Positions 35,463 through 39,065 of a stretch of DNA of 41,792 nt are shown here, piece after piece. Origin of the DNA: a virus; IMG/VR virus record IMGVR_UViG_3300022745_000070, positions 1-41,792 of that record. The stretch is one strand, 5' to 3'. Under the pieces are notes generated by a model. It was given only the letters and a program-made list of their open reading frames with translations. It did no database searches and was not told where the DNA came from. The position numbers and the translations under genes were made by a program. Positions within the stretch are counted from its first letter, which is position 1. Every line of letters begins with the position of its first letter.

Positions 35463-36473
35463 ATGGCGCGCTGCGGCCTCGACAAGAACCGGAAGTTCCT
35501 GCGCCTCGCCCACGCCTTGAACGGCGCCGCCCCCGGCCTCGGGGTGCTCGTGGCGCGCGGGGCCCTCGAGACGCTGTGGGATGCGGCCTACGACCGCGCC
35601 GACGATCACCTCGGCGACGAGCAGGACGTCGAGATGGCGGCCAAGTGGGGCGGCGAGCCCGGCGCCCTCTTCGAGGCCCTTCTCCATGCGGGCGGCTCGG
35701 CAGGGCTTGGATTCATCGAGCCCGATCCGGTGCGCGGCGGCTACCGCCTGCATGCGCTGTGGGAGCACGCTCCGCGGTGGGTTCTGCGCAAGGCGGAAGG
35801 CGCCGCGAAGCGCGAGGAGGTCGGCGTTTCTGTGTCCGATCTGCGGCGCTCGGCGGCCGAAAAGCGGTGGTCGGGATCCAAAAGGGATGCAAACGGCCAC
35901 GATCCGATGCAAACGGGCGCGGTTTTGGATGCAAACGGGATGCAAAAAACAGGTAGGGATAGGGAAGGGAAGGGAAGGGAAGGGAAGGGAAGGGATCTTA
36001 AAAGCCTTGCGGCAGCTCCGCCGCCGCCGCCGCCGCGCCCTGCGCCCGAGCCCCTAGAGCTGCTTTCGCCCGAACCGGCCGCCGCAGGCAACCCCGACCA
36101 GGCGCCCGACAACCCGGCCCGGTTCTCATGCACACGCGAGCAGGCGCTCGAGGCCCTTGCCCTCGCGAGCTCGGGGCGGTTCGTCGCCTCGAGGCCCGAC
36201 CGGGGCGGCGTGTTCAAGCTCGACCGCCTGCGCCGAGAACCCGAGGCGCTCGAGCGGCTGCGGCTCGCCGGCGAGTGGCTCGCCGCCGGCGGCGACGGCT
36301 ACAAGGCCACGCTCGACGGCCGCGCCCTCGGGGCGAACCTCGACGGATGGCTGGCGCAGTCGGCGGCGTGGCTCGCGAGCGGCCGCCCGGCGATCGGGCC
36401 GCCGCGGCGCGCCGGCGCCGTGGTCGGGATGGCCCCCCCGAGCCCGGCGCCCGCTTCCTACGGCATCGAGTAG
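35463..36473 (+). CDS. replication initiator (lambda O-like / replisome organizer) carrying the origin
   Basis: A 336-residue protein. The N-terminal part (GLDKNRKFLRLAHALNGAAP, then HLGDEQDVEMAAKWGG and GFIEPDPVRGGYRLHALWE) resembles winged-helix replisome organizers. The middle, residues about 142-180, is low complexity because the DNA there carries four direct repeats and a pentamer array. The C-terminal part (from about 220) is a second helical domain. The DnaC/IstB-like loader follows after 69 bases, the same order as lambda O and P. It should bind the iterons inside its own gene and bring in the helicase. Confidence 0.75.
   Translation: MARCGLDKNRKFLRLAHALNGAAPGLGVLVARGALETLWDAAYDRADDHLGDEQDVEMAAKWGGEPGALFEALLHAGGSAGLGFIEPDPVRGGYRLHALWEHAPRWVLRKAEGAAKREEVGVSVSDLRRSAAEKRWSGSKRDANGHDPMQTGAVLDANGMQKTGRDREGKGREGKGRDLKSLAAAPPPPPPRPAPEPLELLSPEPAAAGNPDQAPDNPARFSCTREQALEALALASSGRFVASRPDRGGVFKLDRLRREPEALERLRLAGEWLAAGGDGYKATLDGRALGANLDGWLAQSAAWLASGRPAIGPPRRAGAVVGMAPPSPAPASYGIE
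35886..35946 (+). repeat. four iterons, candidate replication origin inside the initiator gene
   Basis: GATGCAAACGG occurs exactly at 35886, 35906 and 35928, and a partial fourth copy (GATGCAAA) begins at 35939. Centre spacings are 20, 22 and 11 bases, close to whole turns of DNA, so all sites face one side of the helix. AT-rich stretches (GGTTTTGG, CAAAAAAC) lie between and after them. Confidence 0.7.
35961..35995 (+). repeat. AGGGA pentamer array next to the iterons
   Basis: Seven perfect copies of AGGGA, with two imperfect copies just before. All purines lie on one strand, with a GGG every five bases. This can form a G-quadruplex or triplex and may help strand opening. It encodes an Arg/Glu/Gly/Lys-rich linker. 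Confidence 0.7.
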
Positions 36474-38078: not shown

Positions 38079-38086
<8 letters not shown>

Positions 38087-39065
38087 GCTCGTCGGGATGC
38101 TCAACCGGGCGCTCGCCTGCTACGCGCTGACGCCGCCCGAGCACGAGGAGCTGCGCCGCGCCGTCACCGACTACGAGCAGAGGCAGGAGGCGGCGCTCGA
38201 GCGTTCGATCCCCGAGCCGGCCGGCTCCTTCGATCTCGTCGCTCACCTGCGCCGCCAGCGCGCGTTCTCGCTGCGCACGTTCGGCCCCGGCGCGCGCTCC
38301 GCCGGCGTGATCGACCACCTGCGGAAGGAGCTGCTCGAGCTCGAGCGCGACCCGTCGGACTTGACGGAGTGGATCGACGTGGTGCTGCTCGCCTGCGATG
38401 GCGCGTGGCGGCAGGGGTTCACCCCCGAGCAGATCGCATGCAACCTCGGCGAGAAGCTCGCCCGGAACGAACAGAGGAGCTGGCCCGACTGGCGCACCGC
38501 CGACCCCAACAAGGCGATCGAGCACGTGCGGACCGAGGAGCAGCCGATCGCGCCGCCGCCGGCGGTGGTCGAGGCAAAGCCGGCCGCGGCCGTCGAGCGC
38601 GCGGAGTCGGCCCCGCGTCCCCTTTCGGCGCTCGAGCAGGAGATCGCCTACCTGCGCGCCTACAACGTGCACGCGCGCACCGACGGCGCGGTACTCGCTG
38701 CCCACGCCGCCGGGTTGCTCGTCGATGCTCTCGGCTCCTCGCCCACCGTCGAGGAGCTGTGCGACGCCCTGCGCAAGCTGCGGAAGGAGCGCGCCGACGA
38801 GATCCACGGGCTCGAGGCGCAGATCGAGAACCTCGCGCTCGAGCGGCGCGAGGCCGTGAACATGAACGATCGGCACCGCCGGGCCCTTGCCGCCTACCAG
38901 GCGAGCGCCGCGCCCCGCCAGCAGGTCAAGCTCGCGGCGGAGCTGCGCAACGCCGAGGCCGCGCTCGGGCGGCTGCGCGAGCACCTCGAGGCGCTCGCCG
39001 AGCACCTGCGCGGCTCGATCGTGACCGCCGAGGCCGGCCGCGTGATCGATGGGGTCGAGCCGTGA
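38079..39065 (+). CDS. dATP/dGTP pyrophosphohydrolase (DUF550, MazG-like) fused to coiled coil
   Basis: A 328-residue protein. Residues about 60-155 match the DUF550 family: FSLRTFGPGARSAGVIDHLRKELLELE, EWIDVVLLACDGAWRQG and SWPDWRTADPNKAIEHVR. Its acidic residues near 84-89 and 97-100 are the metal site. Family members split dATP and dGTP to monophosphates. From about residue 180 the protein continues as a long coiled coil, which is not part of the family. It could shape the nucleotide pool during phage growth. GTG 38079 has no strong ribosome site and relies on overlap with the previous gene. Confidence 0.72.

Follow-up and report, generated by a model that had tools for sequence, protein, structure and literature searches.

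Repeats within a candidate initiator gene

The window analyzed here is the whole of virus record IMGVR_UViG_3300022745_000070, a stretch of 41,792 bases with a GC content of 73.5%. It contains a putative replication initiator gene whose codons carry a cluster of iterons and an AGGGA array, followed by a gene for a predicted helicase loader (Table 1).

Table 1. Features of the candidate origin region, in window coordinates unless residues are given
Feature	Position	Strand	Description
Putative initiator gene	35463..36473	+	336-aa ORF; holds all iterons and the AGGGA array in its codons
Initiator N-terminal domain	~residues 1-144		helical, winged-helix-like (AlphaFold2 model)
Initiator linker	~residues 145-220		disordered (AlphaFold2 model)
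Initiator C-terminal domain	~residues 225-306		helical (AlphaFold2 model)
Degenerate iteron GATCCAAAAGG	35875..35885	+	exactly 11 bases upstream of the first full copy; codon frame 1
Iteron 1, GATGCAAACGG	35886..35896	+	exact; codon frame 0 (DANG)
Iteron 2, GATGCAAACGG	35906..35916	+	exact; codon frame 2 (MQTG)
Iteron 3, GATGCAAACGG	35928..35938	+	exact; codon frame 0 (DANG)
Iteron 4, GATGCAAAAAA	35939..35949	+	codon frame 2 (MQKT); runs into A-rich spacer to 35954
Array, AGGGAT and seven AGGGA	35955..35995	+	purine strand is coding strand; candidate opening or single-strand element
DnaC-like helicase loader, 377 aa	36543..37676	+	phrog_50 (1.8e-11), phrog_26922 (1.1e-8), phrog_3277 (1.1e-7)

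No 8-mer of the window other than GATGCAAA reaches four non-overlapping copies in a span of 110 bases (starting at 35886, 35906, 35928, and 35939), and no such four-copy 8-mer appeared in any of 40 first-order Markov shuffles. The four repeats spaced 20, 22, and 11 bases that a sequence-only reading had described are thus borne out, exact at three sites and present as GATGCAAAAAA at the fourth. With the degenerate copy included, the spacings are 11, 20, 22, and 11, not a strict 11. The successive copies lie in codon frames 1, 0, 2, 0, and 2, so that what is repeated here is a DNA word, and not a peptide. The 125-base segment 35886-36010 has a GC content of 53.6%, compared with 73.5% for the record, and ranks within the lowest 0.04% of equal-size segments.

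As also noted earlier, an A-rich stretch leads from the iterons into seven exact AGGGA units (35961-35995) inside the coding region. The units are homopurine throughout, contain seven GGG runs, and encode a hydrophilic, charged peptide of the EGKGR type. The array has the top tandem-repeat score of the whole window and contains its only pure purine or pyrimidine run of at least 20 bases. Its period-5 run measures 30, against a maximum of 14 in shuffles.

The loader gene agrees with the earlier expectation of a DnaC/P-like loader after the initiator gene, and the profile match to phrog_50 places it on the DnaC-like side. Its product reaches Pfam IstB_IS21 only below threshold, and no relatives of it were confirmed in IMG/VR. 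GC skew, followed along the whole record, does not turn clearly at the iteron/array site. Two adjacent N6/N4 DNA methyltransferase genes (PF01555; 32834-34512, + strand) lie shortly upstream of the initiator gene. The product of a further gene, at 38079-39065 (+ strand), has a dATP/dGTP pyrophosphohydrolase domain (PF04447, E 6.3e-23). The PF04447 family is linked to 2-aminoadenine phages; this link is unsupported for the present virus, as neither PurZ nor a family A polymerase was found in the record.

The initiator protein and its nearest relatives

The AlphaFold2 model of the window initiator has a mean pLDDT of 66, with values of ~70-90 in the domains, and its disordered linker coincides with the repeats. 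A fold search with the whole protein returned no E-value below 2.8 and only weak winged-helix-like entries, and the N-terminal domain (N-domain) similarly gave weak matches, to winged-helix proteins only. This lack of a fold match is not evidence of a new fold. No Pfam family matched, the RepA_N domain PF06970 included, and tblastn found no direct relatives among annotated phages. We considered membership of the lambda O family and rejected it, as neither a Pfam family nor an O-like profile family was matched.

In profile searches, the window initiator reached phrog_9474 ("replication initiation protein") only below threshold (E 0.081), while its relative L002 matched the same family with an E-value of 7.8e-6. 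A second relative, L005, which has its C-terminal domain in common with the window initiator, matches the phrog_2447 initiators (3.9e-28). The window protein is tied to replication initiators only through L002 and the shared C-terminal domains.

These relatives also show what is kept at the locus and what changes. L002 retains TACAAACGG iterons, in different codon frames, without a clean array. L003 carries GTAGACG repeats followed by (CCCGT)5, and L004 and L005 carry GGGGACA/TGTCCC repeats followed by CCGA units. The layout is thus kept even though both elements change in sequence, and none of these nearest relatives shares the exact AGGGA unit. They retain iterons but not the array of the window, a point that counts against the origin reading.

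Distribution of the array among phage initiators

An exact scan for (AGGGA)5 over 2.9 million IMG/VR viral contigs found 88 stretches, whereas a control pentamer with one base changed, (AGCGA)5, gave none. Most of these stretches have the array on the coding strand of a single gene, in its linker, where it is read as EGKGREGKG. At least 55 of the 66 carrier ORFs tested match phage "replication initiation" families: phrog_1408 is matched by 55 of 66, and related "replication initiation protein" families by similar numbers. Other ORFs encode primosomal, replication, or HNH-fused initiator proteins. A scan for (CCCGT)5 gave 37 stretches in IMG/VR, and 19 of the 40 candidate ORFs within them match another initiator family, phrog_2447.

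We then considered 160 loci fetched by alignment of the initiator N-domain alone, 80 from bacterial genomes and 80 from viral contigs. The arrays themselves could not drive this search, and the sample leans towards the relatives of the carriers because the alignment was built from array carriers. The best period-5 run of the locus falls inside the initiator linker in 126 of 152 loci, against 6.7 expected, and in 123 of 159 no purine run outside the gene is as long as the longest one in the linker. At least five GGAA/GGGA cores per 40 nt occur in 70 of 84 dereplicated linkers and in none of the 84 corresponding N-domains. Counts of codon choice within the arrays (AGR, GGR) were dropped as evidence; with arrays defined as purine runs, such counts are circular.

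The sequence-only reading had called a G-rich purine array unusual in this place; such arrays are instead recurrent in the linkers of phage initiators. By record title, carriers include Proteobacteria, Actinobacteria, and Bacteroidales, and the N-domain is present in 443 annotated phage records. Among named phages, Che8 and ClubL carry (GGGGAACA)n, Austintatious carries GGAACAG, and Kp4865-4 carries GGGAA, while F10, JBD94b, and Bordetella phage IFTN5 carry CTGATTC-type units, that is, units of the GGAATCAG type on the other strand. In Che8, gp78 is annotated as a RepA-like initiator and gp79 as a helicase loader. More generally, the gene 3' of the initiator in 68 loci encodes a DnaB-like helicase in 19, a P-like loader in 19, and a DnaC-like loader in 4.

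Several variants were seen in passing. CTGATTC-type tandem units encoding the peptide PDSLIP stand at the array position in Pseudomonas, Acinetobacter, Bordetella, and Vibrio phages (L294, L301, L302, L304, L305). Across L256-L292, (CCCGT)n may lie on the coding strand of the initiator gene or on the opposite one, often also directly after iteron-like repeats. An HNH endonuclease domain is fused between the N-domain and the array in L010, L032, L257, and their relatives. In the initiator linker of L173, from a Mediterranea sp. MAG, a long STID peptide run (STIDSTIDSTID...) precedes a GGAAAA array.

The diversity of units bears on how the array might work. The sequence-only reading had suggested that it could fold into a G-quadruplex or triplex and so help opening; on this view, a quadruplex or an intramolecular triplex would drive the opening. 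The seven GGG runs and homopurine character of 35961-35995 suit such a structure, and this particular array may form a quadruplex. Across the N-domain-fetched loci, however, units include GGGAA, GGAAA, GGAAT, GGAAAA, GGGAACA, and GATGTA. GGAAAA, GGAAT, GGGAACA, and GATGTA stand in the same place, and many units (GGAAAA, GGAAT, GGGAACA, GGGGAACA) have too few G runs or are not homopurine. A four-run G3 motif is found in only 23 of 72 dereplicated arrays, many having three GGG runs or fewer. A quadruplex or triplex therefore cannot be the function that these arrays share, and we regard opening driven by such a structure as improbable.

The strand on which the purines lie bears on a different idea, namely that of an R-loop at the array. 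When the initiator gene is transcribed, purine-rich RNA would stay paired to the pyrimidine template, and the displaced strand would serve as the entry site for the helicase. The idea has precedent, since the lambda origin needs transcriptional activation. It also agrees with the commonest class of loci, where the coding (non-template) strand of the linker has purine runs of at least 15 in 112 of 159 and pyrimidine runs in only 2 of 159. Other initiators carry the opposite strand, however, which weakens this role: (CCCGT)n lies on the coding strand in L274, L278, and L281, and the Pseudomonas phages F10 and JBD94b have units like TCTGATTC, which on the other strand read as a unit containing GGAA. 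We therefore consider an R-loop role unlikely.

A perfect pentamer array in a coding region is also prone to slippage, and the loss or gain of one pentamer would shift the frame and turn the initiator off, as in a phase-variable microsatellite. Many of the arrays, however, are imperfect mixtures of units that still keep the purine pattern, and they stand in fixed register after the iterons, mostly in initiator genes, so that this explanation is scarcely credible.

Phasing and selection in related initiators

The statistics in this section come from a large initiator family, outside which the window initiator falls by sequence. In the 90 nt upstream of the array in 128 dereplicated genes, identity at lag 11 is 0.419, compared with 0.263 in codon-shuffle controls (z 36.7), with further peaks at lags 22, 33, and 44. 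These genes contain 430 exact 6-mer pairs at lag 11, against 3.5 in the control, and the N-domain, used as a control region, shows far less lag-11 periodicity. Relative to the start of the array, TCGACGA occurs in one phase in 37 of 48 cases and TCACTGA in that same phase in 35 of 41, counts that include related sequences and are not counts of independent events. The sharing of one register by two different iteron words points to geometry.

Synonymous differences between equal amino acids were compared region by region. Among 31 related sequences, the N-domain and the stretch after the array have values of 0.389 and 0.394, compared with 0.159 for the iterons and only 0.002 for the array. A second group (n=14) follows the same order, with 0.228 (N-domain), 0.129 (iterons), 0.022 (array), and 0.268 (after the array). 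This suppression of synonymous change in the iterons and array is the signature of selection on DNA: in the relatives, the nucleotide sequence is under selection in its own right, besides the protein that it encodes.

Selection for a flexible, charged linker (EGKGR) that is repetitive by chance would fit the hydrophilic, charged residues encoded by most units and the disorder of this region in the model. It does not fit the amino-acid differences in the 31 related sequences, which rise from 0.138 in the N-domain to 0.342 in the iterons, nor the near absence of synonymous change in their arrays. Moreover, different units encode different peptides (EGKGR, EKEKEK, SRPVP, DSLIP), and the iteron phase of 11 is not a multiple of 3. 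An explanation at the level of the protein is accordingly very improbable.

Comparison with known origins

In lambda (J02459), a purine-rich tract lies directly 3' of the iterons. The lambda O/ori-lambda and Stx-phage origins, whose layout has been described (PMC7466680), resemble the window in that the iterons sit midway through the initiator gene, a purine-rich tract follows on their 3' side, and a helicase loader gene comes next. For lambda O, binding to the AT-rich region in single-stranded form has been reported (PMC7466680). The lambda iterons differ in being annotated as 18-bp imperfect inverted repeats 20-24 bp apart, compared with the 11-mer of the window, and the lambda tract is A-rich, whereas the array here is GGGAA at 60% GC. 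The earlier proposal of a lambda-like origin in an O-like gene is supported by the comparative evidence as regards the design, and not as regards the likeness to O, as lambda O and the window initiator have no detectable sequence match.

Initiators of the RepA_N type offer a second comparison. The N-domain model of the commonest phage initiator family (pLDDT 90, pTM 0.82) has as its closest folds 4pql (Z 9.0), 4pt7 (8.4), 5kbj (8.1), and 4pta (8.0), all of which we take to be pSK41 RepA. These scores are only slightly above those of other winged helices, and the likeness is therefore a lead, not proof. In pSK41, the origin is central inside rep and itself encodes the linker, and the winged-helix N-domain of RepA binds the Rep boxes (PMC5703833). 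The commonest phage family would share with pSK41 RepA a winged-helix-type N-domain and an origin within the initiator gene; a GGAA/GGGA array is not mentioned in the text of PMC5703833, and the window protein's own fold match is weak. The mycobacteriophage repA replicons of Miko and Jeeves, whose origin is thought to lie in or adjoining repA (PMC7157519), were considered as functional proof and set aside, as their RepA proteins are by inspection unlike the family and lack an array.

The arrays can also be compared with single-strand elements. DnaA boxes and DnaA-trios, like the layout in the window, combine double-strand sites with a short repeated element, and the DnaA-trio is a single-strand binding motif (PMC10797057). 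The trio is a 3-nt repeat that binds DnaA, whereas the phage arrays have a 5-8 nt repeat and an initiator that is not DnaA, with a single-strand role that is only proposed. In iteron plasmids such as RK2 and F, iteron-bound Rep can also hold the single-stranded DUE (reviewed in PMC10797057), where the repeats are AT-rich 13-mers in a plasmid origin, in contrast to the G-rich array inside an initiator gene described here.

A proposed mechanism of origin opening

Computation shows the repeats and their non-randomness, selection on DNA in the relatives together with a fixed register between iterons and array, and the association with genes for initiation and helicase loading. We consider it likely that the repeats of the window are the replication origin of this phage, located in the stretch of the initiator gene that codes for the disordered linker, and that opening would proceed through the iterons and the array and be followed by the action of the loader. 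Comparative evidence strongly supports an origin of the lambda type within this initiator gene.

In the proposed mechanism, the winged-helix-like N-domain of the initiator would bind along one face of the double helix, at the helically phased iterons. The bound cluster would strain the adjoining AGGGA array, which would then open. The initiator or a partner may hold one strand of the opened array, with the regular units providing repeated single-strand contacts, a role that we liken to that of the lambda A-rich tract or the DnaA-trio; no other step is as uncertain as this one. The C-terminal domain, together with the DnaC-like loader, would finally bring the replicative helicase onto the exposed strand, as the gene order suggests. 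A strand-specific opening element is, for the array, a better inference than a quadruplex.

The two-part layout, with 11-base-phased sites followed by a GGAA/GGGA-rich array, recurs in many distantly related phages. The placement of an origin within an initiator gene is known from lambda and the RepA_N plasmids, while for the GGAA/GGGA array with 11-bp iterons we found no description in the open-access literature searched. Tentatively, we suggest that a tandem array with a GGAA/GGGA core, in fixed register after 11-bp iterons, might be a widespread and apparently undescribed origin element of phages. It might be common to different initiator families and to phages and prophages whose hosts include at least Proteobacteria, Actinobacteria, and Bacteroidetes. 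Its single strand might be read either by the initiator or by some replication factor that these phages have in common, much as a DnaA-trio is read in bacteria. We consider this wider reading possible, and less probable than the assignment of the origin itself.

Implications for phage replication

Very few sequenced phages have a known origin, to our knowledge. The recurrence of the array core across initiators and host phyla, when the iterons do not recur, poses the question of why this should be so. Opening of a phage origin becomes directly testable in cultured phages, for example mycobacteriophage Che8. The two-part signature of an 11-base period and then a GGAA/GGGA array in the initiator linker, beside a helicase or loader gene, would make it possible to locate the origins of many phages and prophages by sequence inspection.
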